From the NCBI GenBank assembly GCA_943788425.1, contig CALSQF010000015.1:1-64000 (forward strand): a stretch of 64,000 nucleotides of DNA. The letters are read 5' to 3'. Each line of letters opens with the position of its first letter. Within the stretch, counting starts at the first letter, position 1. The stretch comes from an uncultured Planktomarina sp. (lineage in GTDB: Bacteria > Pseudomonadota > Alphaproteobacteria > Rhodobacterales > Rhodobacteraceae). The notes under the pieces are model-generated. The model had not been told where the DNA came from. It saw nothing but the letters and a program-made list of their open reading frames with translations, and searched no databases. The position numbers and the translations under genes are program-made. Shown one piece after another: positions 6,998 to 25,315 of the stretch.

Positions 6998-7023
6998 CAG
7001 GCAAAACTCTGGGAGGAGAACAC

Positions 7024-10039: not shown

Positions 10040-10203
10040 TTTGCGCCCTCTTTGCTGCTGGCCAATCTGGCCAAGGAAAACTGAATTCTGGCCCATACTT
10101 AACTTGATCGTGTCGCAATCATGGTCCGATTACTGGCAAGAAAGCGGCCGACTGGACTGATTTACTGGGCAAGTTTAGCCTGTTTGGTCTTTTCCCCGTG
10201 ATT

Positions 10204-10689
10204 TTAAGATGTTGTGGTGAGTTTTGCGAGATTTGGATGGGAGCTTTTGACTTGGCGAGTCGCGATGTAAGTCATATAGCGCTCAATCGCGAGATCCGCT
10301 GACAACATCTCTTCCATGAGGCGTTGGAACGCGGCCAAATTGGGCGTTACCACCGTCATCACATAGTCCATGCCACCGCCGGTCGCGATGCATTGGGTCA
10401 CTTCGTCTAAGTTGCGAATGTGCAGCTCAAAGCGTTCGAATTCGATTTTTCGGTGTGAGCTCATCGCCACGGTGACCACAACCTGTGTGAAATCTATGAT
10501 GCGCTCCAGGGCGATATCCGCGTGAAAGCCACGAAGAATCCCCGCGGACTTCAAGCGATCAAGCCGTGCCCAGCACGGTGTCGGCGAGAGGTTAACCAGC
10601 TCTGCGAGACGCGTCTTGCTCAGGTGTCCATGCTGTTGAACGGCACTTAATATGCGAATATCCGTAGCATCGAGCCCCAATTTCTTCAT
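10204..10689 (-). CDS. Lrp/AsnC-family transcriptional regulator
   Basis: DNA-binding regulator with an N-terminal AsnC helix-turn-helix (ATDIRILSAVQQHGHLSKTR, then LAELVNLSPTPCWARLDRL) and a C-terminal RAM ligand-binding domain (GGGMDYVMTVVTPNLAAFQR). At 161 residues from ATG 10689 it has normal length; a start 33 bases further out is also open. It lies 164 bases upstream of the DmdA-like gene in the same direction and is a likely local regulator of it. A 19-base palindrome at 10749-10767, upstream of its own start, could be an autoregulatory site. Confidence 0.88.
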   Translation of the reverse strand: MKKLGLDATDIRILSAVQQHGHLSKTRLAELVNLSPTPCWARLDRLKSAGILRGFHADIALERIIDFTQVVVTVAMSSHRKIEFERFELHIRNLDEVTQCIATGGGMDYVMTVVTPNLAAFQRLMEEMLSADLAIERYMTYIATRQVKSSHPNLAKLTTTS

Positions 10690-10748
10690 ATGTATCCGTC
10701 TTTCATGAAACCGTTTACGCACATGTCATAACCCATATATTAGAGTTT

Positions 10749-10936: not shown

Positions 10937-12061
10937 TTATGTGACCAGCGCGGCCCCTTCGGTCAAAGCGCTCAGCTTGGCGTAAGCGATACTGGGATCG
11001 ACTGTACCAAAGCCTGCGAAGGTCCCAAAGCCGCAGTCACTGCCAGCGATCACCCGTTCATGACCGACAATATCGACAAATCTTTCAATCCGCTGCGCCA
11101 CCAACTCTGGATGCTCGACAAAATTTGTTGTCGTATCGACCACCCCTGGGACCAAAATCTTTGTATCCGGGATATCAGCCTTGCGGTCGCGAAAAACGGT
11201 CCACTCATGCCCGTGGCGTGGGTTTGAGGTTTCAAATAACACATAGCGCGCTTTGGCGGACATCAGCGTGTCAAACATTTTCGACATCGGAATATCACAG
11301 ATATGTGGCCCTTCATAATTGCCCCAGCAAATATGAATTCTCACACGGTCTTCGGGCACATTCGACAGCGCATGGTTCAGCGCCTCCACATGAGTGGCGG
11401 CAACCTTCAGAAATTCGTCATCGCTCATGTCGGTGAAGAGCATGTGCCGGGAGAGCGCAAGATCCGGACAATCCAATTGCAGGTCAAGGCCGGCAGCTAT
11501 GATGGTTTCATATTCCTGCTTCATCGCATCCGCCAAAGCGGCGAGGTAAGCCTCGCGATTTGGATAGTAGCCATTTTGCAAGAATAAGGATATCACACCG
11601 GGGCTGGCGGCATTCATAAAGCCGCGCTCGATCCCCTGTGCGGCCATCGCAGATTTGAGATTGGCGATATCCTTCCCCAATTCACCTTGTCCTTTTGATG
11701 TGACCTCACCCACGCACATGGGGCGCGCATAAGTGGGGGTGCCGCCGCCATCGGCCAAGCGCTTGAGAAAGCTCGGAAACATCGCCAAATCTGCTGGTGC
11801 ATTGCGGTCACTGTCGCCTGCAAACCCTGTGTAGCGGTCTTTGACATAGGTGGCATAGGAGATCTTGGATGTCTCACCATCACTCACGATGTCGATTCCA
11901 ACCTCTTTCTGCCGGGTCACGGTCTCAGCGACAGCAGCGGACATGGTCTTGTCGAACTCTGCTTGATCATAAGAGGTTTCATTTTCACGCGCAAAGATGA
12001 AATCGACAACCTCCTGTGTTCGGGGCAATGATCCGGTATGCGTGGTCAATACTTTAGACAT
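10937..12061 (-). CDS. Cobalamin-independent methionine synthase (MetE C-terminal) family protein
   Basis: Zinc-dependent methyl- or alkyl-transferase of the MetE catalytic-domain family, 374 residues, about half of full MetE and lacking its N-terminal domain. It begins MSKVLTTHTGSLPRTQEVVD. All zinc ligands of the family are visible: His and Cys in HICWGNYEG, Glu in LFETSNPRHG and Cys in SDCGFGT. The start at 12061 overlaps the upstream hydrolase stop. It is the last gene of the long leftward catabolic operon, so a role in demethylating the substrate or recycling a methyl group is more likely than methionine synthesis. Related short MetE-like proteins include enzymes acting on non-methionine thiols. 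Confidence 0.8.
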   Translation of the reverse strand: MSKVLTTHTGSLPRTQEVVDFIFARENETSYDQAEFDKTMSAAVAETVTRQKEVGIDIVSDGETSKISYATYVKDRYTGFAGDSDRNAPADLAMFPSFLKRLADGGGTPTYARPMCVGEVTSKGQGELGKDIANLKSAMAAQGIERGFMNAASPGVISLFLQNGYYPNREAYLAALADAMKQEYETIIAAGLDLQLDCPDLALSRHMLFTDMSDDEFLKVAATHVEALNHALSNVPEDRVRIHICWGNYEGPHICDIPMSKMFDTLMSAKARYVLFETSNPRHGHEWTVFRDRKADIPDTKILVPGVVDTTTNFVEHPELVAQRIERFVDIVGHERVIAGSDCGFGTFAGFGTVDPSIAYAKLSALTEGAALVT

Positions 12062-12794
12062 GTTCAATCTCCTTAGGGGGCAGGGGTGGGGCGTTTGTAG
12101 CACCATCGAGCCAGATGCGCAGCGCGGTGGTGGTGGCCTCGGGCTGTTCAAGTGTCGGCAAATGGCCAGCCCCATCAATAACTTCAAGCTGTGCCCCAGG
12201 AATGAGCTGGGCCAACAACACATGTCGATCGAGCGGACATAATCGATCCTCTTTGCCGCAAAGGATCAGGCTTGGCACATTCACCAGCTTTAGATTGTCT
12301 TGTTGGTCTGGGCGGGTGGCTAGCGCTTCAGATTGGTTGAGGAAGACCTCGGGGCCAAGGTCCATGGCCATGGTCATGCAGAGATCTAAAATATCGTCCT
12401 TATGGGCGCTATCTGTCAGGTAATTTGGTTTCATCTCATCGCGCAGAACTGCACGCAGATGGCCTTGGCGTACCTGCGCCTTTTGATGCTCTCGATTGGC
12501 GCTTACGGCTGGGTCTTCTGCTTTGGGGTTTGTGGCCATCAAGGCGAGATGAGTCACGCGTTCAGGTGCATGGCGCATGATCTCCATCGCGACGATCCCC
12601 CCCATCGACAGCCCTGCGAGCGCAAATTGCGGCGGCGCAGATTTCAAGACCGAATGCGCCATGCCGGCGATTGTATTGGTGCCCGTTAAGGGGGGCACCA
12701 AAACCGCTCGGCCGGCAGAAAGCGCAGCTATCTGCGGCGCAAAAAGCCGCGCATCGCACATCATACCGGGCAAAAGAACGAGAGAGCCAGCCAA
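12054..12794 (-). CDS. Alpha/beta hydrolase
   Basis: Cytoplasmic esterase or lactonase of the alpha/beta hydrolase fold, 246 residues. The oxyanion region is LVLLPGMMCDARLF and the nucleophile elbow is GLSMGG. The acid is probably the Asp of GKEDRLCPLD and the histidine is in DGAGHLPTLEQP, so the catalytic triad is complete. It resembles 3-oxoadipate enol-lactonase-type hydrolases. It lies four bases after the bicupin gene and overlaps the MetE-like gene, so it probably hydrolyses a ring-cleavage or lactone intermediate of the same pathway. Confidence 0.82.
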   Translation of the reverse strand: MAGSLVLLPGMMCDARLFAPQIAALSAGRAVLVPPLTGTNTIAGMAHSVLKSAPPQFALAGLSMGGIVAMEIMRHAPERVTHLALMATNPKAEDPAVSANREHQKAQVRQGHLRAVLRDEMKPNYLTDSAHKDDILDLCMTMAMDLGPEVFLNQSEALATRPDQQDNLKLVNVPSLILCGKEDRLCPLDRHVLLAQLIPGAQLEVIDGAGHLPTLEQPEATTTALRIWLDGATNAPPLPPKEIEHV

Positions 12795-12797
12795 GGA

Positions 12798-13763
12798 TCA
12801 AGCCACCCAAGTGGGGCCAGCAGGGTCATCGGTGGCAATGATATGATAGAGCGCGGCTTCCCCCGTCATGGACGGCACTGCGCTATGTGGAAGATGTTCC
12901 GGCACGGACATAGTATCTCCCGGAGCCAGCGTTGTGGCCCCCCCCTCCCAGGCAATCCGCCAGTGGCCTTTGACAGGCATCAAGACGCTTGGCCGATCAT
13001 GTGCATGCGGCTGATCAGTAGCGCAATGGCGGGTAATCAAATCAATCTCAAAACCAGGGCGATCTCGGATCAACCCTTTTTCGCCAATGACTTTGACCGC
13101 GCCGCTGTGTGCCAATGCCACCATATCAAGATAGCGCCGCACATAGCCGCCCACCACCTCCATCGGGGTTGGTACATTGACCTGATTCAATTCTGCTTCA
13201 GTCAAAACCGCCATCGGTGCCACCCCATCTGGGAGGCGCTCACCAGTCTTGGTATCATAGAGTTTGCCATTCTCTCCAAGGATCAGACCATGGTCTTTGG
13301 CATCTTCAATCACATGCGGCGCCCAGATCACGCCGCCGCCGGCGTCATCTCCACCCAAAACGGCCATAATCATCCCATAATCTGTTCCGATATTTTCAAA
13401 GCCTCGGAACATATTGGTGGGGATGTTAACAATATCGCCCTCTTGCAAGATCACCTCACCAGCATCGCCCCGCTCGCCCCAAAAAAAGCGCCAGCGGCCG
13501 GATAAAACAAAGAAAACTTCTGCTGTACGATGATTGTGTAATGAATTTCGACATTTCGGAGGCTGTCCTGCTGCCCCAATGTTGAACCCATGCGGCACAG
13601 CAATATGCACATGTTGGTCAGGTGATTCAGACACCCCTCCGCCAATAATCGTGAAATTTTCTTTTTGATCGCTTCCAGGCGTGTGGGCGTCGATAAAGGC
13701 TGTTTTGCATGGAATGAGATCGCCATAGCGGACAATGCGTTTTTCCATCTCTTCTGGGGTCAT
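12798..13763 (-). CDS. Bicupin protein, gentisate-1,2-dioxygenase-like
   Basis: Two cupin domains in 321 residues. The first holds SLHNHRTAEVFFVLSGRW, with GDIVNIPTNMFRGFENIG, and the second QPHAHDRPSVLMPVKGHW, with PGDTMSVPEHLPHSA. The histidine pairs are suitable metal ligands for Fe(II). Length and two-domain plan resemble gentisate-type ring-cleaving dioxygenases, but bicupins also include isomerases and lyases, so the reaction is inferred. It sits between the hydrolase and a SnoaL-like gene in the catabolic operon, consistent with oxidative cleavage followed by hydrolysis. Confidence 0.72.
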   Translation of the reverse strand: MTPEEMEKRIVRYGDLIPCKTAFIDAHTPGSDQKENFTIIGGGVSESPDQHVHIAVPHGFNIGAAGQPPKCRNSLHNHRTAEVFFVLSGRWRFFWGERGDAGEVILQEGDIVNIPTNMFRGFENIGTDYGMIMAVLGGDDAGGGVIWAPHVIEDAKDHGLILGENGKLYDTKTGERLPDGVAPMAVLTEAELNQVNVPTPMEVVGGYVRRYLDMVALAHSGAVKVIGEKGLIRDRPGFEIDLITRHCATDQPHAHDRPSVLMPVKGHWRIAWEGGATTLAPGDTMSVPEHLPHSAVPSMTGEAALYHIIATDDPAGPTWVA

Positions 13764-13798
13764 CCTATGTTCCTTTTTGCAAGATCCAAAAACGCAGC

Positions 13799-14767
13799 CT
13801 AATGGCCCGCCATCAAAATCTGTTTCCAGATCGCGATTTCGTCATAAAGCGCATATTCACGGCGCAGGCCCCAGGGTCCAAATTCTGCATGACACATACC
13901 AAAGACATGCACAGGCTTGCCTGTGGGCGCTCCAAAGCTGCCCCAGCCCTCATGCAGACCGTCCAGGGACCAACGGATCGCCGCGCGTGGGCTGAGCATG
14001 CCACCTTCCATGCCAATTTGGTGATGAATTTTAAAGTCCGCCTTGGGAAAAGAGGCCCTTAGACCCAGCCAAAAGCCAATGCTGTCATCGCGGCCCAATG
14101 TGGTTTTGCCCCCAGCATAGTCTCCGATGACCGCTCGGTCATAGCATTTGAAAATATGGTTGAAATCTTGGGCCATAATCCGATTGAGAATATCGGCATA
14201 TTTTTGGCCCCATGCGTTATCATTTCCCCGGCCGTGATAGCCTCCGTCCATGTCATTTTCTGGCAGAAAAACCGACTGCGCGGCCTCAGGACCGCCTTCT
14301 TTTTCAATAAGCTGCGCTGCAAATTCTGCTGGATCATATCCCAGTTGGCGCACAATGCCGCCATAGTCGCGCACGAGCCATTCATCATAGATGGTTTCCC
14401 CTTTGGCTGCACAATCAGCAATAACCCGAACGGTCCATGGCTTGCCGGTTGCCTTGCCAAATTGTCCGTCTTGCAAATGGGTCGCTTTGGTAATCAACCT
14501 ATGCGATGACAGGTGGCCATTTTCTGGCGTTTCAGACCAAATCACATCTTCCCCAAAGAGTTGACGATCTGGGAACTCGTGAACCGTTGTCATCGTTGAG
14601 GCTTTCACGCTTTCATTGCCTCTTTGAATGCCCATAGGGCTGCGCACGACGATATCGGGGGCATAATAATGATTGAGGCTTTCAATACCTCTGTCTTCCC
14701 AGATTTGCTTGGTAATGCCGATTATGTAATCGGGAAAATCTTGCCAATTATTCGCATAGGGTTTCAT
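13799..14767 (-). CDS. Two-domain SnoaL-like / NTF2-fold protein (first of three)
   Basis: 322 residues, about twice the length of a single SnoaL-like cyclase. The N-terminal half reads IGITKQIWEDRGIESLNHYY and DIVVRSPMG; the C-terminal half repeats the plan with RAAIRWSLDGLHEGWGSFG and ends with a Trp-rich helix. SnoaL folds bind hydrophobic or cyclic substrates in polyketide cyclases, dehydratases and epoxide hydrolases; no specific reaction can be assigned. The start overlaps the 3' end of the LacI gene by 20 bases, indicating translational coupling. It is more distant from the two other SnoaL-like proteins of the island than they are from each other. Confidence 0.75.
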   Translation of the reverse strand: MKPYANNWQDFPDYIIGITKQIWEDRGIESLNHYYAPDIVVRSPMGIQRGNESVKASTMTTVHEFPDRQLFGEDVIWSETPENGHLSSHRLITKATHLQDGQFGKATGKPWTVRVIADCAAKGETIYDEWLVRDYGGIVRQLGYDPAEFAAQLIEKEGGPEAAQSVFLPENDMDGGYHGRGNDNAWGQKYADILNRIMAQDFNHIFKCYDRAVIGDYAGGKTTLGRDDSIGFWLGLRASFPKADFKIHHQIGMEGGMLSPRAAIRWSLDGLHEGWGSFGAPTGKPVHVFGMCHAEFGPWGLRREYALYDEIAIWKQILMAGH

Positions 14768-15785
14768 TTGTCCATCCTTCTGGAAGTCGCACCGAGCGAC
14801 GAATTATGAGAGGTCCATCCAGCGCGACTCGGCTGGGTGTGCTGTCGGGATCATCAATTTGCCGCAGCAGGGTCTCAACAGTTCTAGCCACCATTTGATT
14901 GACGGGCTGGCGCACAGTCGTCAGATCATAGGCCCGCCAGGCCGCTGTCGGCACATCGTCATAGCCGACTACAGAAACATCATGCGGCACAGATAGACCG
15001 AGTTCAAAGCGCAGCGTATCCATCACCGCAAAGGCCATATGATCATTTGCGACAAAGATCGCATCTGGTGGATCCCCGCGATCAAACATCTCCAGCGTGG
15101 CTTGGCGGGCACTGTCCATATGAAAATTGCCAATCGTGCGCAGATCTATATCGCGCCCGTCCTCTGCGAGCCTTTGACGAAATCCAAATTCGCGGTCACG
15201 CTGCGTCGAGGCCCCCTCCCAACCGGCGATATAGCCAATGCGATTTGGCGCTGTGGCCAATAGAAACTCAGCAACTTTTCGACCGCCTTGAAGATTGTCT
15301 GAGGTGACGGAAGACAAAGATTGCAAATCTTGGCTGCGGTTGAATAAGACCACAGGCACCCCGGCGTTTTGACATCGATCAAGGAGCTGTGAGGAGAGCG
15401 CCACGGAGGCGGCAACAATTCCGTCTACCTGATAGTCTAAGATTTCATCAAGGATTTCATCCAGGTTGTCCGTGGCGGTATTGGCCATGAAAATCAGCAC
15501 ATGATAGCCACGATCTTGCAGCATTGCCGAGAGTTTTTCCAAAGCCTCTGGGTAGAATTGGTTTTCCAAATAGGCCACCACCAAACCAATGATCCGACTT
15601 TTGCCACTGACCATGGCGCGCGCGATGCTATTGGGACGATATCCCAATTTCACCGCTGCTTCCCGAACTTTAAGCGCGGTTTTTGCCGAGGCCGACGCGC
15701 CGGGTGTGAAAACACGGCTGACGGCAGATTGGCTCACCCCAGCCAGGGCGGCGACATCGGCAGAGGTGACTTTAATTTGCGACAT
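14748..15785 (-). CDS. LacI-family transcriptional regulator
   Basis: 345-residue repressor-type protein. The N-terminal LacI helix-turn-helix is SADVAALAGVSQSAVSRVF, the hinge region is LGYRPNSIARAMVSGKSR, and a periplasmic-binding-protein-like effector domain follows (VGYDDVPTAAWRAYDLTTVR, QPVNQMVARTVETLL). ATG 15785 overlaps the SDR stop by one base (TGATG). Being inside the operon it presumably controls, it would be autoregulated. Two matching operator-like palindromes lie in the divergent promoter region at 23329-23400. The effector is probably the imported compound or a derivative. Confidence 0.92.
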   Translation of the reverse strand: MSQIKVTSADVAALAGVSQSAVSRVFTPGASASAKTALKVREAAVKLGYRPNSIARAMVSGKSRIIGLVVAYLENQFYPEALEKLSAMLQDRGYHVLIFMANTATDNLDEILDEILDYQVDGIVAASVALSSQLLDRCQNAGVPVVLFNRSQDLQSLSSVTSDNLQGGRKVAEFLLATAPNRIGYIAGWEGASTQRDREFGFRQRLAEDGRDIDLRTIGNFHMDSARQATLEMFDRGDPPDAIFVANDHMAFAVMDTLRFELGLSVPHDVSVVGYDDVPTAAWRAYDLTTVRQPVNQMVARTVETLLRQIDDPDSTPSRVALDGPLIIRRSVRLPEGWTNETLCE

Positions 15786-16549
15786 CAGTCTGCTGTCCAA
15801 CCTCCATCAATCATCACGGCGGTGCCGGTCACCAACGCCGCAGCGTCTGAGGCCAGATAAACCGCCGCCCCCATGATATCTTTCACGTCCCCAGCACGGC
15901 CCAATTTGATTTTATCTAAAACCCAGGCACGCTTATCTGGATCATCAAAGGTTGGCTGAGTAAGTTCTGTTAAGATGAAGGTGGGGCAAATGGTATTGAT
16001 CCGAATATTATGTGGCCCAAATTCAATCGCCATAGCTTTCGTGAACCCTTCAACGGCGAATTTAGAAGCGCAGTAGACCGCGCGCTCCATGCCGCCGACA
16101 TGGCCCATTTGGCTCGAGATATTGATCAAAGATCCTGGCTGCCCCGCCGCGATTAACCCCTTTGCCACAGCTTGGGACAGGAAATACGCGCCGCGCAAAT
16201 TGACAGTCATCACAGCATCAAAGTCTTCAGCCGTGGTGTCAGTGGCTTTGGAATGGCGGGCCGTTCCGGCGGAATTGATCAAAATGTCAAAGGGACCATG
16301 GCGCTCCACCGCACTTGCTGTGGCCTCTATATCCCCGACATCTAGCGCAAGCACCTCGGCGGTTTGACCGGCATCCCGCAATTGCGCTGCCGTCTCTTCC
16401 AGTTGATCGACGCGCCGTGCGGCCAATGTGACCGCAGCACCGTAATCGGCAAGCGCAACGGCGCAGGCCCGGCCAATGCCGGAAGATGCCCCGGTGATCA
16501 GAGCCCTTTTGCCAGTCAAAAGAAAACTTGGGGTTTGCGGCAAATTCAT
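15785..16549 (-). CDS. SDR-family oxidoreductase
   Basis: 254-residue classical short-chain dehydrogenase. Motifs are TGASSGIGRA (cofactor binding), ILINSAGTAR, ISSQMGHVGG with the catalytic serine, YCASK, and NTICPTFILT; it ends VTGTAVMIDGGWTAD. Acidic or basic selectivity after the second strand (AARRVDQLEE) leaves the cofactor open. It is nested in the operon with overlaps at both ends (four bases with the SnoaL-like gene upstream, one base with lacI). It likely interconverts an alcohol and ketone of the imported substrate. Confidence 0.9.
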   Translation of the reverse strand: MNLPQTPSFLLTGKRALITGASSGIGRACAVALADYGAAVTLAARRVDQLEETAAQLRDAGQTAEVLALDVGDIEATASAVERHGPFDILINSAGTARHSKATDTTAEDFDAVMTVNLRGAYFLSQAVAKGLIAAGQPGSLINISSQMGHVGGMERAVYCASKFAVEGFTKAMAIEFGPHNIRINTICPTFILTELTQPTFDDPDKRAWVLDKIKLGRAGDVKDIMGAAVYLASDAAALVTGTAVMIDGGWTAD

Positions 16550-17586
16550 GACGGCATTCCATTGTTAAGGCTGATGGATCCACCGGGCTTGGCTTTGTTG
16601 AATTCCGCGAGCCGTGCGAAGACATCAATTCCGACCTGGCGGTAAATATCCAGCAAATCGACCAAGACCCAATTTTCTCGAATAAGCCCGTTTTCCACAC
16701 GCCAAAAATCTAAACTGCGCATCAGTACTTCCTGGCCCAGCGGCGGCAAGCCCATCCAACCATCGCCGCTGAGGGTCAGGCGCATATTCGGCCAGCCGGT
16801 TTCACAGACATACTCGCCTTCACCGATCCAATGCGACATCAAATCGCCCATCGCATCAAGCTTTCGGTCTGGCATGCCGCGCAGGAAAGGAATTTGATGC
16901 CAATGCCGGAAGCCAGCAATGCCGCGTCCTGTGCCTATGCCCGTTGGTCCGTACCAGTTGAAACGCGGATGCCAATGGGTCTCAAGCTGCATGATCTCTG
17001 GGCCACCCTCAGCAGGGTGACGGCATAGATCGGTCAGCATCGAGACAACACGTTCCATCGCCGCGTCGCCATTGCCGGACAGGCGCAACCCGTCTTGGGT
17101 CATCGGCGCTGGGGTGCACAGAAACGCCCCAAGCTGCGGCGCCATGGGCCAGGCGTTTGCCTGCGCCATGACTTCCGGAATGTCCCAGATCGCCTGCATT
17201 TCGGTGACCTTCCCCTCTTCGAGGCGGTAAAATTCGTGAAAGCGCATATGGGTGAGATGGCCCGTTGGCGGTATACCAAGCCAGGGCGCTAGAAAGCTGC
17301 CCATATAATTGCCCATTATGCCGACCCAGTCTTGCCCCTGCGGTGTTGTGCCTGCCATCGTGATCATCTCGCGCCGTTCCAAATCAGGAAGAGCGGCGAA
17401 GAGCGGCGCATAGGCCGTTTCGTACAGCGCTTCAGGGCCGCACAGCATCCCGAAGGGGTGACATAACTGAATATTGGCTGTCTGCGAAAACACATTCTTG
17501 AGGCTGGACCGGACCGGGGCTTCAGCGAAATTGGCCATTGCCAATTGAAGAGGCGCAAGGCAGGCTTTCGCCGCGGCAGGGGTCAT
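16546..17586 (-). CDS. Two-domain SnoaL-like / NTF2-fold protein (second of three)
   Basis: 346 residues from ATG 17586, which overlaps the upstream dehydrogenase stop (ATGA). The N-terminal half has [20 protein letters not shown], a typical SnoaL-like core, and the C-terminal half repeats it with [20 protein letters not shown] and [19 protein letters not shown]. It is clearly paralogous to the divergent protein at 23413-24441, which has WWGPAGIGA and ENWIFIDLLHFWKGLGVDI at the same places. A longer reading starting at 17682 would overlap the dehydrogenase gene with unconserved sequence and was rejected. The reaction is unknown; ester cyclase, dehydratase or isomerase are options. Confidence 0.78.
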
Positions 17587-18893
17587 TTGGCGCCCCCCCC
17601 GTAAGGTACATTCTGCCCACCATAGCGGCGCACCCGGATATTGCATTGTTCGGCATGGCCCACAAACCCTTCCAGCAGACAAAGCCTCGAACCATAGGCG
17701 CCAATCATCGCCGCGGCCTCATCGGTGAGGATCCTTTGATAGCTATGGGTCTTAAGAAATTTTCCGACCCATAGCCCGCCCGTGTAGCGCCCGGCCTTTT
17801 TTGTTGGCAGGGTATGGTTGGTGCCGATGACCTTATCACCGTTGGAGACATTCGTGCGCGGGCCCAAAAAGAGCGCCCCATAACAGGTCATATGCTCCAA
17901 AAACCAATCATCGCGATCCGTCATGACCTGCACATGTTCGGAGGCGATGTCATCAGCGATTTCAAGCATTTCTTGATAAGTGTCGCAACAGATCACCTCG
18001 CCATAATCCCGCCAACTGACGCTTGCGGTCGGGGCGGTCGGTAGGATCGTAAGCAAGCGGTCGATCTCGGCCAGCGTTGCTACGGCCAATTTGCGCGAAT
18101 TGGTTACTAAGATGGCTGGAGAATTATAGCCATGCTCCGCTTGCCCCAGCAAGTCAGTGGCACAGAGCTCGGCATCCACTGTTTCATCGGCAATCACCAT
18201 GGTTTCGGTCGGGCCTGCAAAAAGGTCAATTCCAACCCGACCAAAGAGCTGGCGCTTGGCTTCTGCCACAAAGGCATTGCCAGGACCGACCAGCAGGTGA
18301 ACTGGTTCAATGCTCTGTGTGCCCAAAGCCATGGCACCAACGGCCTGAATACCCCCTAATACATAAATCTCATGTGCCCCGCCCAGATGCATTGCAGCTA
18401 TGACGGCCGGATTGGGCTTGCCGTTAAAGGGCGGCGTGGCTGCAATGATCCGCGGCACCCCGGCAACGCTGGCTGTGGCCACGGACATATGCGCGGAGGC
18501 GACCATTGGAAACTTACCCCCAGGAACGTAGCAGCCTACGGATTGTACCGGGATGTTTTTGTGTCCGAGGATTACACCTGGCAGGGTCTCAACCTCGATA
18601 TCTTGCATACTGTCCCGCTGGGCCTGGGCAAAATTGCGCACCTGCTCTTGGGCAAATTTGATGTCGGCCATATCTTGCAGGCTGACCTCAGCCATCAGCA
18701 CCTCGATTTCCGAGGCGGTGAGCCGATAGCTTTCGCGGTCATAACCATCGAATTTATTGGCCAATTCCCGAACAGCCACATCTCCCCGAGCCTCGATATC
18801 TTGCAAAGTTGCGGCGACCACCTCCGCCGTTTTTGCATCTTCTTCAGCACGAGCGGCATCTGACTTGCCGTGTTTGAGATATTCTATTGCCAT
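17583..18893 (-). CDS. Histidinol-dehydrogenase-family enzyme, HpsN-like alcohol dehydrogenase
   Basis: NAD-dependent four-electron alcohol dehydrogenase of the HisD family, 436 residues. Family blocks are [66 protein letters not shown] and [10 protein letters not shown]. The sequence [14 protein letters not shown] resembles sulfopropanediol 3-dehydrogenase (HpsN) rather than biosynthetic HisD, and the gene sits among catabolic genes, not his genes. It probably oxidises a primary alcohol of the substrate to a carboxylate. It begins 49 bases after the importer permease gene. The substrate need not be dihydroxypropanesulfonate, as no sulfo-lyase gene is nearby. Confidence 0.82.
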
Positions 18894-18942
18894 TTTTACC
18901 CTCTAAAATTCTGAGCGAACCCGGTTGCCTGTCATGTCTGAA

Positions 18943-19824
18943 TCATCCTTTCACCGCGCCGGCCGTCAAACCCGAAACGATTTGCCTTTGGAAAAACATA
19001 ACCAAGACAAAGAGCGGAGCAGTGGCTGAAACCACCGCAGCCACTGCGAACATCACGTTGCCCTCTTCAAACGTAGATCCCAAAAACCCGGCAATGGCTG
19101 GCACCATCGTTTGGTTGTCCTTTGACAGGAGCATCGAGGTCACCGCAAAATCGTTATAGGCGAGAAGGAAGCTGAACAGTCCGGTGGTGATAACGCCAGG
19201 CCACATGACAGGAATTATAACATGGCGGAAGGCTTGGAACTGGGTGCAGCCATCCACCTTGGCACTTTCATCCAAATCTTTAGGGATATTGAGGAAGAAA
19301 GAGTGCAGCATCCACAGAGTGAAGGGTTGGTTGATTGCAACCAGCACGATGATGGTGGTGGGCAAATGCCCCCAAAGGTTCCATTCAAAAAACGGCAGAA
19401 GGTAGCCTGAGACCAAGGTAATATGGGGCATTGCGCGAAACACCAGAGCAATCATCAAAAGCCAAAATGCATAATTGTGGCCAGAACGGGCCAAAGCATA
19501 GCCGCCTAAGGTCCCAAGGGTGAGTGAAATGAGCACCGTGAACAGCACCACAATCGCGGTGTTGAGCGCGGCGCGCCAGAACTCCTGCTGCACCCAAGCG
19601 CCCTCGTACCCGGCGCCGGTGAACAGCCCGCCCGTTTCAATCGCTGTGCGCGTCCCATTGAGCGCATAGCGCCAATCGGCTTTTGAGAAAAAATCACCCT
19701 GCACTTTGAAGGAGCCCCAAAGCGTCCAGACAAATGGAAATGCCGCAATAAAGACCCAGATCAGCACAAAGCCGGTTGAGGCGATCATCAGTGGCTTTGA
19801 AGCTCTGTTTGCGCGGCTGGTCAT
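18943..19824 (-). CDS. ABC transporter permease, MalG/UgpE type
   Basis: Inner-membrane permease of a carbohydrate-type (CUT1) importer, 293 residues with about six hydrophobic segments. The cytoplasmic coupling loop is visible in DLDESAKVDGCTQFQAFRHV, an EAA-type motif, followed by IIPVMWPGVITTGLFSFLLA. The start at 19824 overlaps the stop of the other permease gene (TAATG). It works with the permease, binding protein and ATPase encoded just upstream. Confidence 0.93.
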   Translation of the reverse strand: MTSRANRASKPLMIASTGFVLIWVFIAAFPFVWTLWGSFKVQGDFFSKADWRYALNGTRTAIETGGLFTGAGYEGAWVQQEFWRAALNTAIVVLFTVLISLTLGTLGGYALARSGHNYAFWLLMIALVFRAMPHITLVSGYLLPFFEWNLWGHLPTTIIVLVAINQPFTLWMLHSFFLNIPKDLDESAKVDGCTQFQAFRHVIIPVMWPGVITTGLFSFLLAYNDFAVTSMLLSKDNQTMVPAIAGFLGSTFEEGNVMFAVAAVVSATAPLFVLVMFFQRQIVSGLTAGAVKG

Positions 19825-20852
19825 TATATCGCCTTCCCTTTGAAATCCCGCCATGTGCGGATCAAAACTGGCAAAAGCAAGATCGTCACGCCCAGTATTG
19901 TCAAAACCGATGTGGCCGCAGCAGAGTTGAATCGCATGACATCGCCCCGCAAATCATTAAAAATGATGAAGGATAACGATGTAGCATTCGCCTGGGCGGA
20001 AAAGCCCACGATGGGCTCAAAGACGCGAAAATTATCCATCAGTTGGATTAACGAGATAAAGATCACCAAAGGCATCAGATGTGGGATCACCACATAGCGC
20101 AATTGCTGCCAACGGTTTGCGCCGTCGATCTGCGCCGCTTCCAAGGAATCCGAATTTACTGTTTGCAAGCCCGCGTAAAACACCACAAAGGCAAAAGGGG
20201 CTGAATGCCATATGCCATAAACGATCAAGGTCATCCAGGTCAGCGCCGGAGAGGCTTTGAGCGACAGCTCAGGATCGTCGAAAAGATATTGCAAAGATTT
20301 GCCGATGATCCCCTGCGCATCGATCATCCAGAATAAAATGAGAGAGCCAATTAATGGGGTAACGATCATGGGCAAAAGGGACACAAAGATTGTTGGCCCT
20401 TTCAGGATCGGAGTGACCCGGTTCACGCCCAGCGCAATTACAAGTCCCAGCAAGATGACCAGCGGCGTGACAACGAAAGTGTAGACCAAAGTAAAGCCAA
20501 TAGCCTTATACAATGGCAAATTGTAAAGATCGGCCAAGAACCCGCCCAATGAGCTTCGTTCTTGCCAGGCCTGCGCGACTTCCGCTGTGGCCAGATGGCC
20601 GCGGTCAAAATAGGTGTTCAATCCATTGAAGCGCCCCAAAGGTTTTTGGTCGCGCAGCATTTGCGTCGCTTCGGCGTTCACGGTTGTTTCTTCTTTGCAT
20701 CCAAAGGGACCGCAATTTTTTGTGACCTTCAGGACTTGTTCATGTTCAATATGCAACGATTGCACCGCCACAGAAACAAGCGGCAAAGCAATGAACAGGA
20801 GCATTGCGGCCAAAGAGGGCAAAATAAACCAAAAGAAGGTGCGATGTGCCAT
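19824..20852 (-). CDS. ABC transporter permease, MalF/UgpA type
   Basis: Inner-membrane permease paired with the MalG-type protein. I choose ATG 20852 (MAHRTFFWFILPSLAAMLLF), which starts just before the first membrane helix; a GTG at 20909 is also open but lies inside a hairpin. It has 342 residues. Between the first two helices is a long periplasmic insert with a Cys pair (NCGPFGCKEE). The EAA-type loop is DSLEAAQIDGANRWQQLRYV. No strong ribosome binding site is seen, so translation may be weak compared with the binding protein. Confidence 0.9.
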   Translation of the reverse strand: MAHRTFFWFILPSLAAMLLFIALPLVSVAVQSLHIEHEQVLKVTKNCGPFGCKEETTVNAEATQMLRDQKPLGRFNGLNTYFDRGHLATAEVAQAWQERSSLGGFLADLYNLPLYKAIGFTLVYTFVVTPLVILLGLVIALGVNRVTPILKGPTIFVSLLPMIVTPLIGSLILFWMIDAQGIIGKSLQYLFDDPELSLKASPALTWMTLIVYGIWHSAPFAFVVFYAGLQTVNSDSLEAAQIDGANRWQQLRYVVIPHLMPLVIFISLIQLMDNFRVFEPIVGFSAQANATSLSFIIFNDLRGDVMRFNSAAATSVLTILGVTILLLPVLIRTWRDFKGKAI

Positions 20853-20885
20853 GCGTGGGTTTGAATCCAAATTCGGTGGGGAAAC

Positions 20886-20911
20886 GGGTGAAGCCTCAAA
20901 AGGCTTCACCC
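20886..20911. promoter_or_regulatory. Intra-operon stem-loop between binding-protein and permease genes
   Basis: GGGTGAAGCC (20886-20895) and GGCTTCACCC (20902-20911) form a perfect 10-bp stem with the loop TCAAAA. It lies between the binding-protein stop (20928) and the permease start (20852) and lacks a U-tract in the transcribed direction. Such hairpins in importer operons stabilise the upstream mRNA or attenuate read-through, giving more binding protein than permease. Confidence 0.65.
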
Positions 20912-20927
20912 AGATCTGTGGCAGGTC

Positions 20928-22160
20928 TTACTGTAGGAAGCCTTTTTCCTTAGCTGCTGCGGTATAGGCCGCTTCAACATCAGCTAAGGCTTGCTCCGCG
21001 GTTTCTGAACCTTGCAGAAATTCGGTGATTTCCGCGCCCAAAGCACCATGCAGCAAGCCCATGTAGGGCAGCATTGGATATGGGTTTGCGCCAGACATGG
21101 CTGTTGCCGATACACCAGCGGAAGCGGCGCTGGGCTCATAAACTGCGCTGAGCCATACGGCGGCGTCATTATTGGTACGCACCACATCATCTGAAATACC
21201 GTTGACCAAGGCCACAAAGGTGGCTTCAGCATCTGCATCACTGACATTGGCCGAAATAGTAAAGCCATCCCACCAGAGTGTTGAGGCCACATTGTCGCCC
21301 ATCAATGTTGGAGCACTGGTCAGAACGGTGGAGCCGGTCACCTCCTCGGTTGAGCCTTCGTCATCCAAAATTGGGCCGCCGCGCGATCCCCACATGATGC
21401 CAAGCGCGGCTTGGCCGGCTTCCCACACTGCGGCGGTGGCGTTGGAATCATAGGTCAAATAATCCGGGTTGGAATATTCGGTCAAAGATTTCAGCATATT
21501 GAGCGCTGCAACCCCGTGATCGTTATTGATTGCTACCTCTGCGCTCCCCGCTTTGAAGAATGGCGCGCCTGTGCCCATATACATGTTCACAAATTCCTCA
21601 CCCAGGTTCCAGCCGGTCTTGGTGTTCATGATCACCGGGTGATCCATGAGCCCTGCGGATTTGATTTTCGCAGCTGCGGCCAAAACTTCTTCATAGCTCT
21701 TGGGAGGCTGTACACCAGCGGCCGCCAGCACATCTGATCGGTAGAACAAATGCTGTGCGTTGGCCATGAAGGCCACGGCCATGACTTTACCATCAATGGT
21801 GATCAGTTGAGAAGGCTGAAGGCCTTGTCCATGTTTGGCAACAAGATCATCCAAGGAACGGATAAGCCCATCATTGAGCAAGGGCACAATTGAGCTATTG
21901 GCGACAATGGCGGCAGAATACTGCGCCGGATTAGCGGTCAATGCTGCGACCTGGAGATCTCGGTGTTCCGTGGTGAGGTTCGCGCTGACGGTCACGCCAT
22001 CCCCCGCGCATTCGCCTGCACCGGCCACGACCGCTTGGATCGCGGCAAAATCATTGCCCAGAATATTCACATTTCCTGCGGACAGACCACAACCGGCAAG
22101 CGCCGTTGTCCCTGAAAGCACGGTCACCGCTCCGGCGAGTGCTAGTTTCTTTAAAAACAT
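20928..22160 (-). CDS. ABC transporter substrate-binding protein, MalE/UgpB type
   Basis: Periplasmic binding protein of the importer, 410 residues. ATG 22160 is supported by GGGAGA eight bases upstream and by a signal peptide (MFLKKLALAGAVTVLSGTTA, cut near LAG). The mature protein has the CUT1 pattern: LITIDGKVMAVAFMANAQHL, AAGVQPPKSYEEVLAAA, AALGIMWGSRGGP and a C-terminal helix with EQALADVEAAY. A Cys pair (CGLSAG, GAGECAGDG) in the N-lobe may form a disulfide. A sugar, polyol or similar neutral solute is likely; the exact ligand cannot be read. Confidence 0.92.
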   Translation of the reverse strand: MFLKKLALAGAVTVLSGTTALAGCGLSAGNVNILGNDFAAIQAVVAGAGECAGDGVTVSANLTTEHRDLQVAALTANPAQYSAAIVANSSIVPLLNDGLIRSLDDLVAKHGQGLQPSQLITIDGKVMAVAFMANAQHLFYRSDVLAAAGVQPPKSYEEVLAAAAKIKSAGLMDHPVIMNTKTGWNLGEEFVNMYMGTGAPFFKAGSAEVAINNDHGVAALNMLKSLTEYSNPDYLTYDSNATAAVWEAGQAALGIMWGSRGGPILDDEGSTEEVTGSTVLTSAPTLMGDNVASTLWWDGFTISANVSDADAEATFVALVNGISDDVVRTNNDAAVWLSAVYEPSAASAGVSATAMSGANPYPMLPYMGLLHGALGAEITEFLQGSETAEQALADVEAAYTAAAKEKGFLQ

Positions 22161-22244
22161 TTCATTCTCCCTATGTTTTGATGCGCTCTGCAATTTGGCA
22201 TCTATTGTCCCGCGGCACATTTATGCCGAGGGTATGAACGGAGA

Positions 22245-23297
22245 TTACTCTCCAATGCGCGTACCTGTTTGATGATCAAACAGATGACAAATCTTTGTTC
22301 GAACTTCGATGGATACCTCATCGTGTATCGTGGCTCGAAAGCCCTTATCAGCCTTAACGCTGACCAGAGCCTCATTGATACGGATCGTGACCATAGTGGC
22401 ATCGCCCAACAGCTCGATGGAATAGATAGGCGCGCGAATCTGTCCGCTCCCCTCTTGCGCGATTTGGGCATCCTCTGCCCGAAAACCCAAGGTGACCGGG
22501 CCATCAGGGCCGTGCAATTCGTCAATCTCCACCCCTGGCGCCGTGAAGCGACCATTTTGCAAGTGCCCCTCAATTAAGTTCATGGCGGGACTGCCAATAA
22601 AACTGGCAACAAAACTATTGGCAGGGCGATCGTAAATTTCTGTTGGACTGCCAACCTGCTGAACAATGCCTTTTTCCATCACAACCACGCGATCTGCCAA
22701 AGTCATGGCCTCGATTTGATCATGGGTCACATAGACGGTTGTGACCGCCAATTCATGACTGAGATTCTTGATCTGCGCCCGCGTCGAGACGCGCAATTTT
22801 GCGTCAAGATTGGACAGAGGCTCATCCATCAAAAACACATTTGGTTCACGCACAATCGCGCGGGCCAGAGCCACCCTTTGGCGCTGCCCTCCGGACAACT
22901 CTGCGGGCTTGCGGTGTAAGAAGGGATCAAGCTCGACCATTGCGCTGGCGCGGCGGACCTTGGCGTCATGAGTTTTGGGATCAACCCCACGCACCTTTAG
23001 CGGAAAACGGATGTTTTCATAGACATTCATATTTGGGTAGAGCGCATAGGATTGAAAGACCATCGCGACATCCCGATCCTTCGGCTGCAGGTCGTTCACC
23101 ACTTTGCCATCAATCAAAATATCGCCTTCAGTCGCATCTTCTAGCCCGGCAATCATGCGCATGGTGGTGGTCTTGCCACAGCCCGAAGGGCCGAGCAGAA
23201 CCAAAAACTCTTTATCCGTAATGGTCAGATCAAAGTTATCAACCCCGACGAAAGTGCCCCATCTCTTGGAAAGATTCCTCAGCTGAATTTCAGCCAT
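22245..23297 (-). CDS. ABC transporter ATP-binding protein, MalK/UgpC type
   Basis: ATPase energising the importer, 350 residues. Walker A is GPSGCGKTT, the signature is LSGGQRQRVALARA, Walker B is NVFLMDEPLSNLDAKLR, and the H-loop is YVTHDQIEAMTL. A C-terminal TOBE/regulatory domain follows (VTLGFRAEDAQIAQEGSG), typical of CUT1 importers. The start at 23297 has GGGAGAG upstream. It is the first gene of the 12-gene leftward operon; the promoter with LacI-type operators lies directly upstream. Confidence 0.95.
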   Translation of the reverse strand: MAEIQLRNLSKRWGTFVGVDNFDLTITDKEFLVLLGPSGCGKTTTMRMIAGLEDATEGDILIDGKVVNDLQPKDRDVAMVFQSYALYPNMNVYENIRFPLKVRGVDPKTHDAKVRRASAMVELDPFLHRKPAELSGGQRQRVALARAIVREPNVFLMDEPLSNLDAKLRVSTRAQIKNLSHELAVTTVYVTHDQIEAMTLADRVVVMEKGIVQQVGSPTEIYDRPANSFVASFIGSPAMNLIEGHLQNGRFTAPGVEIDELHGPDGPVTLGFRAEDAQIAQEGSGQIRAPIYSIELLGDATMVTIRINEALVSVKADKGFRATIHDEVSIEVRTKICHLFDHQTGTRIGE

Positions 23298-23328
23298 TGT
23301 TTGATACTCTCCCGCAGCCAGAATCATT

Positions 23329-23344
23329 TTGCAAACGTATTCAA
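23329..23344. promoter_or_regulatory. LacI-type operator, site 1
   Basis: TTGCAAACGTATTCAA is an imperfect palindrome with the central CG step of LacI/GalR-family operators. It lies 32 bases upstream of the importer ATPase start. Site 2, 56 bases away, has the same pattern, so looping by the LacI-family protein encoded at 14748-15785 is plausible. Confidence 0.6.
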
Positions 23345-23384
23345 ATTACACTAGACAGCGCCCCCTGATTTAGGCAAGAGTTTT

Positions 23385-23400
23385 TTGCAAGCGTATGCAA
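23385..23400. promoter_or_regulatory. LacI-type operator, site 2
   Basis: TTGCAAGCGTATGCAA has perfect TTGCA/TGCAA arms about a central CG. It ends 13 bases before the start of the divergent SnoaL-like gene, where bound repressor would block that gene. It shares 14 of 16 positions with site 1. Confidence 0.65.
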
Positions 23401-23412
23401 AAAAGGTGACTT

Positions 23413-24441
23413 ATGGACTTTCGGGCTGAAAAACAGGTTGTTAGAGATTATTACGCCGAACTTGACCGAGCTGAGGGTGCGGATATCGCACGGGTCACGC
23501 AGCGCTATTGCGTGCCAGATTATCTTTGGCGCGGTTTTCATCCCTTTAATGAGCAAACCTCAGCTCAGGCTGTGGCTGAGTGCTTTTGGCTGCCATTGCG
23601 TGCCTCCCTAACGCGCATGCAACGGCGCATGGATATCTTCTTCGCCGGCAAGAATGAAATGGATGGGTTTCAATCGACATGGGTGATGTCGATGGGGCAT
23701 TTGATGGGATTGTTCGATCATGATTGGCTCAAAATACCCTGCACGGGCAAAATGGCTTTTCTGCGATATTGTGAGTTTAATCGGGTTGAACAGGGCAAAA
23801 TCGTTGAGACTGCCATGTATTTCGATATTCCCCATCTGATGATTCAGGCGGGGGTTCATCCTTTCCCGCCTCAAACCGCTGCGCATTTGGTGCAGCCGGG
23901 CCCAATGACCCATGATGGGTTGCTATATGACGCGCAACCCGAAGCTCAAGGCGCCGCGACCCTTGCATCCATCAACGCAATGATCAGCGACTTGGGGACC
24001 TGGGGGCTGGGATTGCCTTTGGAAGAAGAATTGGCCCGCTCTTGGCATGACGATATGATTTGGTGGGGTCCGGCCGGTATCGGCGCGACATACACGATAG
24101 AGCGCTATGCCAAGCAGCATTCCGGTCCCTTCCGCGCCGCTTTCACCGACCGCTCCAAAACCAACCATATCTGCCGTATGGCCGAGGGCAATTTTGGCGG
24201 GTTCTTCGGCTGGCCAAATTTCACCGCCATCCATGCCGGCGGCTTTATGGGCATGCCCGCCAGTGACAAACGTGGTGAAATGCGCGTTATCGATATTTAT
24301 CGCCGTGAGGGCGAAAAACTAAGTGAAAATTGGATCTTCATCGATCTGTTGCATTTTTGGAAAGGGCTTGGTGTCGATATTCTCACCCGCACCGCGCAGA
24401 TTGCGCCCCAGCGATGCAGCGGAGCTGATAGACAGCACTAG
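23413..24441 (+). CDS. Two-domain SnoaL-like / NTF2-fold protein (third of three), divergent
   Basis: 342 residues with two SnoaL-like halves. The first contains FHPFNEQTSAQAVAE and LRYCEFNRVEQGKIVETAMY, the second MIWWGPAGIGATYTIERYA and ENWIFIDLLHFWKGLGVDI. It is paralogous to the product of 16546-17586. It is transcribed away from the importer operon and shares its control region with two LacI-type operators, so it is very probably part of the same regulon. The function is unknown. Its extreme C-terminus (QRCSGADRQH) is unlike the paralogue, and an insertion-sequence scar begins about 80 bases downstream. Confidence 0.75.
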   Translation: MDFRAEKQVVRDYYAELDRAEGADIARVTQRYCVPDYLWRGFHPFNEQTSAQAVAECFWLPLRASLTRMQRRMDIFFAGKNEMDGFQSTWVMSMGHLMGLFDHDWLKIPCTGKMAFLRYCEFNRVEQGKIVETAMYFDIPHLMIQAGVHPFPPQTAAHLVQPGPMTHDGLLYDAQPEAQGAATLASINAMISDLGTWGLGLPLEEELARSWHDDMIWWGPAGIGATYTIERYAKQHSGPFRAAFTDRSKTNHICRMAEGNFGGFFGWPNFTAIHAGGFMGMPASDKRGEMRVIDIYRREGEKLSENWIFIDLLHFWKGLGVDILTRTAQIAPQRCSGADRQH

Positions 24442-25222: not shown

Positions 25223-25315
25223 TGAAACCTTGAACAGGCTGAGGTTAGGGCCGCCAGCGCTCGCGCGTGTATTTATGGCCTGAATCGATGTGTGGTTAAC
25301 AATGGGGTGACAGTA

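Follow-up and report, generated by a model that had tools for sequence, protein, structure and literature searches.

The window, a stretch of 64,000 nucleotides from an uncultured Planktomarina sp., carries an island of thirteen genes with which an ocean bacterium most likely takes up and degrades a small sugar-like compound. We regard the island as probably inducible and dedicated to the catabolism of a single small metabolite, one that would be sugar- or cyclitol-like, neutral or zwitterionic, polyhydroxylated and methylated, and whose most likely source is phytoplankton or algae. The open reading frames and Pfam families confirm the layout and the families named in an initial annotation of this DNA, namely a leftward operon of twelve genes and one divergent gene:

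10937..12061, minus strand, MetE-like zinc methyltransferase-family protein (MetE; PF01717)
12054..12794, minus strand, alpha/beta hydrolase, PcaD/BioH-like (ABH; PF12697)
12798..13763, minus strand, two-barrel cupin (PF07883)
13799..14767, minus strand, SnoC, two-domain SnoaL-like protein (PF07366 and PF12680)
14748..15785, minus strand, LacI-family repressor (PF00356 and PF13377)
15785..16549, minus strand, short-chain dehydrogenase, KduD-like (SDR; PF13561)
16546..17586, minus strand, SnoB, two-domain SnoaL-like protein (PF07366 twice)
17583..18893, minus strand, histidinol-dehydrogenase-family protein with the motif GKFPM (HisD; PF00815, 430.7 bits)
18943..19824, minus strand, ABC permease B (PermB; PF00528)
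19824..20909, minus strand, ABC permease A (PermA; PF00528)
20928..22160, minus strand, periplasmic substrate-binding protein, sugar-type (SBP; PF01547)
22245..23297, minus strand, ABC transporter ATPase, UgpC/MalK type (NF008653 UgpC)
23329..23344, unstranded, candidate LacI-type operator, copy 1 (one mismatch to TTGCANNCGNNTGCAA)
23385..23400, unstranded, candidate LacI-type operator, copy 2 (exact TTGCANNCGNNTGCAA)
23413..24441, plus strand, SnoA, divergent two-domain SnoaL-like protein (two PF07366 stretches)

With the start codons chosen here, genes overlap at six of the eleven junctions (PermA/PermB, HisD/SnoB, SnoB/SDR, SDR/LacI, LacI/SnoC and ABH/MetE), and the remaining five are separated by gaps of 84, 18, 49, 35 and 3 bp. 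The upstream starts at 12223 (MetE) and 17682 (SnoB) in the list of open reading frames are mechanical; the starts used were our own choice. Since the same order recurs in relatives, the arrangement is more than chance. A search of the own genome with the DNA of the whole island returned eight extra pieces, all inside the part of the query taken up by the ATPase gene, and no second island copy.

The island is not peculiar to this genome. SnoB was found in 18 of 20 genomes of the genus, evidently Planktomarina, in which the gene set is syntenic, as it also is on roseobacter and Paracoccus plasmids; this conserved order supports a single catabolic unit. Ruegeria conchae and Phaeobacter italicus are among the roseobacters with the island, and orthologues of its binding protein exist in R. 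conchae and Planktomarina temperata. At least 581 related loci exist, of which the best 80 were kept for analysis, and records whose titles name Pelagibacteraceae or uncultured Alphaproteobacteria contain a diverged form. The search of other genomes that had been proposed with the initial annotation found the set to be widespread, in many marine bacteria, with signs of mobility and horizontal exchange. Of the 54 loci in relatives that span 20 kb or more, 30 hold the complete set of nine (SBP, the two permeases, HisD, SnoB, SDR, LacI, SnoC and cupin), and 28 hold MetE in addition; presence was scored with identity cut-offs of 45–50 %, at which diverged permeases count as missing. The locus sets overlap, L110 and L111 being, to judge by their length, contigs of the genomes G001 and G015. 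RraA (38 of 54), a lactonase-like amidohydrolase (22) and a one-domain SnoaL protein (29) accompany the set in these loci. In the own genome, which is 93 % complete, searches for RraA, the lactonase-like amidohydrolase and a stand-alone one-domain SnoaL gave no match, although one of them was run without its own positive control; this suggests that the island of the window may be a trimmed version. SnoB stretches without HisD or SDR also occur (L133, L137, L140 and L141, the last two ending at contig ends), so these steps may not be universal. Handling of a methyl group may likewise be dispensable, as MetE was not found in the stretches of L066 (Paracoccus) and L180 (S. medicae). Threonine/glycine genes were seen by eye beside the loci of Halomonas (L122) and Ensifer (L064), a hint only.

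The LacI protein combines a helix-turn-helix and a ligand-binding domain, and a palindrome with a central CG adjoins its own operon. Two operator-like sites in the window alone are unremarkable, as 6 of 100 shuffles reach two. In the relatives, a palindrome of the type TTGCAtaCGtaTGCAA is present exactly in 48 of 53 SnoA/ATPase gaps and the exact operator is absent from five; the two copies in the window are spaced by 56 bp, and 24 site pairs of the relative loci are spaced by 54–56 bp. Exact sites number 87 over 2.04 Mb, and 79 of them lie inside or at most 20 bp from the 17.6 kb of divergent gaps, with 36 of 90 such gaps devoid of the exact operator. Apart from copy 2, the longer exact pattern turns up in the own genome at just two places, both on contig C1 and centred on ACCGGT. 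The local LacI gene and the conserved predicted operator strengthen the earlier claim of LacI control and support the reading of the set as one unit. We infer that LacI would occupy the palindrome pair between the divergent genes and silence the two promoters, and that binding of the substrate or of an early product to the repressor would lift this block.

All parts of a CUT1 importer are present, with a binding protein, two permeases and a UgpC/MalK-type ATPase including its C-terminal domain. The ATPase scores above the cut-off of the UgpC model NF008653 (445.1 against 432 bits), and the top-scoring solved chains for the binding protein are named sugar or oligosaccharide binders. By resemblance, the ligand would be of the carbohydrate type, and the importer named initially is borne out as such by Pfam, the UgpC score and the binding-protein matches. 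The types of the binding protein and ATPase point towards a sugar-like substrate. A sugar-type MFS protein family lies near HisD in three congeners, one of which was run through Pfam; in one congener an 'MFS/sugar transport' family protein precedes HisD according to Pfam, which fits a sugar-like compound. A Na+:solute symporter in another relative is neutral in this respect. For comparison we take UgpBAEC and SmoF to be the relevant types of LacI-regulated CUT1 sugar operons. The island has the binding protein, two permeases, the MalK/UgpC-type ATPase, a LacI gene and a palindromic site with central CG in common with them, whereas its conserved set contains neither a glycoside hydrolase nor a kinase and its catabolic enzymes are SnoaL, HisD-family, cupin and MetE-like proteins.

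Residue counts for these enzymes refer to copies pre-filtered by coverage and identity (at least 60 % for HisD, 55 % for cupin, 65 % for MetE and 50 % for SnoB), without those containing stops or N and with identical ones merged, a filter that favours conservation. The closest solved relatives of the HisD-family protein are HpsN structures (8v35, E 1.8e-116). Its residues E319, H320, D353, Q251, H254 and H413 are kept in 78 of 78 filtered island copies and match the catalytic Glu318, His319 and Asp352 and the zinc-binding Gln248, His251 and His411 of HpsN; Lys354 aligns with HpsN Lys353. The motif G-R-Y-A/S-H with His126, given for HpsN in PMC11382572, is replaced by GKFPM, in which 77 of the 78 copies have Met at position 130 and one has Leu, and of the HisD motif G-S-A-P-L only Gly and Pro are retained. 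Judged by these positions, the enzyme keeps the catalytic residues, yet is not HpsN, and GKFPM appears to expose a third type of histidinol-dehydrogenase-family enzyme. The earlier assignment as an HpsN-like alcohol dehydrogenase is therefore right at the family level but fails at the signature His. Counting 'hpsN' or 'hisD' by family alone in metagenomes could mislabel the GKFPM enzyme and inflate sulfonate turnover.

Catabolism of dihydroxypropanesulfonate (DHPS; HpsN/HpsO/HpsP in roseobacters and Cupriavidus) resembles the island in that a HisD-family dehydrogenase is combined with an SDR in a cluster for regulated uptake and oxidation. The own genome holds a separate HisD-like gene in two frames on contig C7, and on contig C3 a GRYSH protein with an SDR-like frame, a zinc alcohol dehydrogenase and a ThDP-type gene (Pfam for three of the four), which looks like the real DHPS locus. 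The DHPS pathway was rejected on account of the GKFPM motif and this separate HpsN-motif locus. A variant of it, in which the HisD-family enzyme serves as HpsN, the SDR as HpsO and the ABC importer in place of TRAP, could draw on the HpsN structures as best solved relatives, on the aligned lysine and on HpsO, which is an SDR like the island enzyme (PMC11131964). It is nevertheless very improbable: besides the motif and the contig C3 locus, Pfam found among the 13 island genes the SDR, but neither the zinc alcohol dehydrogenase HpsP of an hpsO/hpsP neighborhood nor a sulfolyase, and the island has ABC uptake together with SnoaL, cupin and MetE-like genes.

According to PMC11382572, enzymes of the HpsN type act on a terminal CH2OH beside a zinc-bound hydroxyl. 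This mode, like the UgpC-type ATPase and the sarcosine oxidase genes and purU adjoining a Vibrio cluster, would suit a glycerol ether or glycerol glycoside such as a betaine-lipid head group or glycosylglycerol, with the HisD-family enzyme oxidizing the glycerol end and C1 enzymes acting on N-methyls. As the conserved set is devoid of a glycosidase or lipase and the sarcosine oxidase link comes from one record only, such a substrate is unlikely. Outside the island, HisD-SDR pairs appear again alongside genes for TAXI-TRAP and for aldolases of the HpaI and/or RraA type (HpaI of locus L173 confirmed by Pfam), which suggests a logic of oxidation followed by aldol cleavage. Family genes of the pyruvate aldolases RraA (HMG/CHA type) and HpaI lie in or beside the cluster or the HisD-SDR pair of relatives; the RraA relative reaches 28.5 bits against the cut-off of 304.5 of the LigK model. 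The SDR and the alpha/beta hydrolase also stay below the cut-offs of TIGR01832 (212.2 against 338.85 bits) and TIGR02427 (100.4 against 255.85 bits), respectively.

In SnoB, D136, D311, E119 and E305 are conserved in all 97 filtered copies, and the SnoaL Asp (D136/D311) is presumably the catalytic residue. SnoA shows 34 % identity to SnoB and is present in 38 of the 54 loci. The predicted structure of SnoB (pLDDT 93.3) exhibits an NTF2-type fold with matches in the SnoaL family; Lsd19 ranks first in the fold search, its chain of ~280 residues being aligned over ~330 columns. The fold is common to the cyclases and epoxide hydrolases SnoaL, IdmH and Lsd19, but the island proteins stand in a catabolic context, and superposition of both domains on Lsd19 is poor (TM 0.30–0.40, rmsd about 17), therefore domain packing differs. 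Since the family and fold matches are mostly polyketide-pathway proteins, one could think of SnoaL-like polyketide cyclases and a methyltransferase that build a secondary metabolite. This is hardly credible: no polyketide synthase, carrier protein or exporter was found among the 13 genes (Pfam for the synthase), while importer, binding protein and local LacI are present and relatives hold aldolase-family genes. With the importer present and the synthase absent, a biosynthetic cluster was rejected.

In the first barrel of the cupin, H76, H78, E82 and R120 are found in 66 of 66 filtered copies, Arg120 occupying the usual position of the second-motif His. Ring-cleaving bicupin dioxygenases, by comparison, bind their metal through three His, or three His and a Glu. 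They are also invariant in a wider alignment of 31 sequences that includes relatives of 33–41 % identity, in which H51 and H53 vary. A conserved metal site was not found in the second barrel of the filtered copies, whose His is not conserved, so candidate metal ligands appear to be conserved in the first barrel only; other ligands are possible. The model (pLDDT 91.6) has quercetin dioxygenase and oxalate decarboxylase among its nearest folds. Of the earlier label 'bicupin dioxygenase-like' the two-barrel cupin stands, but the remainder is overstated for a protein with no conserved metal site in its second barrel. Ring or C−C cleavage by the cupin is unproven, given Arg120 in place of His and a decarboxylase besides dioxygenases among the fold neighbors.

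The MetE-like protein belongs to the catalytic-domain family of cobalamin-independent methionine synthase II and has its conserved His-x-Cys and Cys. H242, C244, E276 and C342, which we take to be the MetE zinc ligands (His, Cys, Glu, Cys), are kept in at least 97 % of 66 filtered copies. It differs in lying far under the cut-offs of all seven methionine-synthase models listed (92.5 bits against 406 for the best) and in its location in a catabolic cluster. It is present in 46 of the 54 relative loci, and three sphingomonad clusters that contain a GcvT-type protein, MTHFR and PurU pair its homologues (51–53 %) with a gene of the NTF2 family; on these grounds, handling of a methyl group is proposed. 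Gene content around further homologues outside the island, in Dietzia (L176), Halobaculum (L177), Halocatena (L187) and Pantoea (L188), does not narrow the substrate.

From these gene families we infer a sequence of reactions. The CUT1-type importer would bring the substrate into the cytosol, where the SnoaL-like enzymes, with two domains each and an Asp and a Glu in each half of SnoB, could catalyze a non-redox proton transfer, i.e. a dehydration, isomerization or retro-aldol step. The HisD-family enzyme would convert a primary alcohol (CH2OH) into the carboxylate with NAD+, the SDR a secondary alcohol (CHOH) into the ketone, and the hydrolase might open an ester, lactone or amide, a task for which some relatives add a lactonase-like amidohydrolase or an amidase. 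In relatives, RraA or HpaI aldolase would cleave the resulting oxo-acid; in the own genome, in which RraA was not found, the final cleavage would proceed by other means. The MetE-like protein would hand on the methyl group.

A more specific idea, which we consider a long shot, is that the substrates are mycosporine-like amino acids or UV screens of the gadusol type, for which the island would be the first route of breakdown. Here the importer would take a zwitterionic, sugar-sized compound and the SnoaL enzymes would cleave the cyclohexenone or rearrange it. From the ring CH2OH, the HisD-family enzyme would produce a carboxylate attached to a tertiary carbinol, and known substrates of the RraA family are tertiary alcohols of this carboxylate-bearing kind. 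Cupin or hydrolase would open the ring, and RraA in relatives would yield pyruvate, with the O-methyl passing to the MetE-like protein and the glycine or threonine moiety to general metabolism. These steps are argued from general chemical knowledge.

Overall, the initial interpretation is partly supported. Its statement that no described pathway has this combination agrees with the open-access matches listed, among whose titles and abstract beginnings (bioRxiv lying outside the scope) no pathway matching the gene set was found, which argues only weakly that none exists. In marine bacteria, a conserved and exchanged set apparently under LacI control points to a metabolite whose fate is unaccounted for, and with related sets in many, often marine, bacteria the substrate could be a common ocean metabolite. 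Binding protein, LacI operator and GKFPM motif offer three direct handles on it. Sulfatase genes near some relative loci (firm by Pfam for L091 and L113, by eye for L089 and L138) lie outside the conserved set, and this lead was set aside for that reason.

The gene content described in the initial annotation was confirmed by the open reading frames of the window and by Pfam assignments. The island (window 10937-24441) comprises 12 leftward genes and one divergent gene. They encode an ABC importer (ATPase, binding protein and two permeases), a histidinol-dehydrogenase-family enzyme (HisD, PF00815), an SDR, a LacI regulator, a cupin, an alpha/beta hydrolase, a MetE-like protein (PF01717) and three proteins with two SnoaL-type stretches apiece (SnoA, 23413-24441, plus strand; SnoB, 16546-17586, and SnoC, 13799-14767, both minus strand). 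With 445.1 bits the ATPase scores above the curated UgpC cut-off of 432. The MetE-like protein and the hydrolase score far under the cut-offs of the models listed, and the SDR exceeds none among the 25 of 234 models listed, the nearest being a broad glucose-dehydrogenase subfamily (208.8 versus 215 bits). The functions of these three proteins cannot be read from their family names.

The same gene set recurs in other genomes. Counting the window's own, 18 of 20 congeneric genomes have SnoB (G005 and G006 lack it), as do 4/17 genomes of other genera within the family and, as a marginal match (E 5.3e-4), 1/24 genomes of other families. Syntenic copies lie on named plasmids of Octadecabacter, Marinovum, Ruegeria conchae and Paracoccus alcaliphilus, and looser versions were found in Ensifer, Vibrio, Phaeobacter and the archaeon Halobellus. 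At least 581 stretches encoding SnoB relatives turned up when genome contigs were scanned; among the best 80 of these, 54 loci span at least 20 kb and were used for gene counts (see table). The binding protein, both permeases, HisD, SnoB, SDR, LacI, SnoC and cupin occur all nine together in 30 of the 54.

Table. Presence of island genes and associated families in the 54 loci of at least 20 kb.
SnoC, 49; PermB (permease), 49
MetE-like, 46; binding protein, 46
HisD, 45
LacI, 43; ATPase, 43
cupin, 40
SDR, 39; PermA (permease), 39
RraA (aldolase family), 38; hydrolase, 38; SnoA, 38
one-domain SnoaL, 29
amidohydrolase, 22

For an IlvD-like housekeeping protein (window 32387-34120), identity ranges over 86-99% in 18 of 19 other genomes of the genus (congeners), G018 having a distant paralogue only, whereas SnoB identity among congeners is 53-66%, with the exception of G002 (99%). 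In other genera SnoB reaches up to 74% among the matches listed (L071), a value from a different aligner than the congener values. Together with the plasmid copies, this contrast suggests horizontal exchange of the island. At 53.6%, its G+C content differs little from the 54.7% of the remaining window, pointing to a source that is not compositionally distant or to a transfer that is not recent.

Putative LacI operators, palindromes of the type TTGCAtaCGtaTGCAA, lie between SnoA and the ATPase gene. A palindrome search gave two operator-like sites in the window:

23385-23400, exact operator-like site
23329-23344, operator-like site with one mismatch, 56 bp from the former

Taken alone, the window gives a weak signal (expected number 0.53; two sites reached in 6 of 100 shuffles). 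Sites were also counted over 108 loci, some overlapping, with 2,044,047 bases. There, 79 of 87 exact sites fall inside or within 20 bp of divergent gaps totalling 17,579 bases; 54 of 90 divergent gaps have an exact site and 25 have two. An exact palindrome is present in 48 of 53 SnoA/ATPase gaps (all except L041, L053, L062, L105 and L127), where neighbouring exact sites are spaced by 54 bp (13 times), 55 bp (10 times), 56 bp (once) or 126 bp (once). Within the window's own genome, a longer exact pattern occurs in the island gap and, centred on ACCGGT, twice on contig C1, and nowhere else. The C1 pair, TTTGCAACCGGTTGCAAA palindromes separated by about 7.5 kb (111797-111814 and 119356-119373), is present in several congeners as well and probably belongs to another LacI regulon. 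Judged by exact sites, the regulon would be the island itself.

The dehydrogenase (17583-18893) had been called HpsN-like, and structures of HpsN, the known dihydroxypropanesulfonate (DHPS) dehydrogenase of this family, are indeed its best solved relatives. The likeness does not extend to the substrate motif. In HpsN, sulfonate is recognised by G-R-Y-A/S-H including His126, to which G-S-A-P-L corresponds in histidinol dehydrogenases (PMC11382572); the island enzyme has G-K-F-P-M instead. Among 78 filtered copies, 77 carry Met and one carries Leu at the His126 position, none varies at Glu319, His320, Asp353, Lys354, Gln251, His254 or His413, and conservation reaches 97% or more at 210 positions. 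Of 11 motif matches in HisD genes that lie outside the island or only partly within it, ten read GKFPM (one of them, L184, in an island copy) and the remaining one, in L178, reads GKYPL. Two further family members exist in the own genome. The one on contig C7 has a different motif and is spread over two frames. The other, on contig C3, carries GRYSH and adjoins an SDR-like frame, a zinc alcohol dehydrogenase and a split ThDP-type gene (L191 5968-10111; Pfam on three proteins), which is probably the DHPS locus of this genome. DHPS oxidation is thus probably served by a separate gene, and the island enzyme would represent a third type of the family. Despite the kinship with HpsN, we regard DHPS as a very improbable island substrate.

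HisD and SDR also occur as a pair outside the island. On Antarctobacter, Sulfitobacter and Marinovum (pMaD2) plasmids a LacI-type regulator gene and a TAXI-TRAP importer precede the pair, accompanied in Antarctobacter by RraA and aldolase/citrate lyase genes and in Sulfitobacter by a gene of the HpaI aldolase family. Agrobacterium larrymoorei has the pair by itself. In Roseibium both TRAP and ABC importers stand ahead of HisD-SDR-LacI-cupin-hydrolase-RraA, and S. medicae has ABC, HisD, SDR, LacI, cupin and RraA homologues in a run, followed by an amidase. The pair could convert a terminal diol into a 2-oxo acid, which an aldolase would then cleave. Amidase genes lie inside or adjoining three cluster versions (L076, L178, L180), a hint that some substrates contain an amide bond.

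The SnoB model (pLDDT 93.3, 35 sequences) comprises two SnoaL-type stretches (Pfam), and its nearest solved folds are Lsd19, IdmH, SnoaL2 and relatives; Lsd19, however, fits poorly across both halves. As D136, D311, E119 and E305 do not vary in any of the 97 SnoB copies counted, both halves of SnoB may be active. A long gene judged MetH-like by eye sits immediately upstream of a one-domain SnoaL gene and SnoB in a Granulosicoccaceae record (L146 5572-11498). Folds similar to the cupin model (pLDDT 91.6) include those of quercetin dioxygenase, oxalate decarboxylase and salicylate dioxygenase. The cupin keeps candidate metal ligands in the first barrel only, with Arg at the usual His position.

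His242, Cys244, Glu276 and Cys342 are retained in the MetE-like protein. On three sphingomonad plasmids its homologue (51-53%) adjoins NTF2-family and IclR genes, near a GcvT-type protein, MTHFR and PurU; two of the three also carry protocatechuate 4,5-cleavage route genes. This setting supports, without proving, the proposed handling of methyl groups. It is absent around four other homologues inspected (Dietzia, Halobaculum, Halocatena, Pantoea), the Pantoea one having an NTF2-family gene nearby.

No RraA match was obtained in the own genome (93% complete), nor one for the lactonase-like amidohydrolase in a search without positive control, and a search for one-domain SnoaL recovered the island's paralogues alone. 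Within the genus RraA occurs at 58-80% identity in 13 of 20 genomes, and some RraA match in 17. For the window copy this leaves three options: it is trimmed, genes absent from the assembly complete it, or its route ends differently.

Facts relevant to the substrate are the carbohydrate-type importer, the MetE-like gene and SAM-methyltransferase genes in 10 loci (Pfam on one). The binding protein (20928-22160) has five Trp positions conserved in at least 97% of 77 copies. A sugar-type MFS protein lies near HisD in three congeners (L046, L048, L058; Pfam on L046), and a Na+:solute symporter occurs in L078 with a relative in L089. Hosts are in many cases marine, some hypersaline, and also soil- and plant-associated. 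Ranked by judgement, a methylated sugar, cyclitol or similar compound has about an even chance of being the substrate; glycerol conjugates are unlikely, and a mycosporine or gadusol type slightly more so. The metabolite is probably sugar-like, and the island itself is real, conserved, apparently LacI-regulated and catabolic. The view that no described pathway combines these genes is supported within the open-access literature searched, where no matching one was found; so far as this literature shows the island is new as a pathway, assembled from known families. In the congener locus L045 the transporter half of a split island adjoins two genes judged by eye to resemble a GH42 beta-galactosidase and an aldose epimerase.

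In the window, the MetE-like end of the island adjoins a GcvT-type protein (8897-10096) similar to DMSP demethylase (367.5 bits, cut-off 410), possibly a methyl-to-folate enzyme, accompanied by Lrp (10204-10722) and OsmC genes. Further neighbours are a paired cytochrome c and flavocytochrome c sulfide dehydrogenase flavoprotein (6230-8289) and CoxG and XdhC/CoxI family genes (25292-26687), which are usual accessories of molybdenum dehydrogenase.
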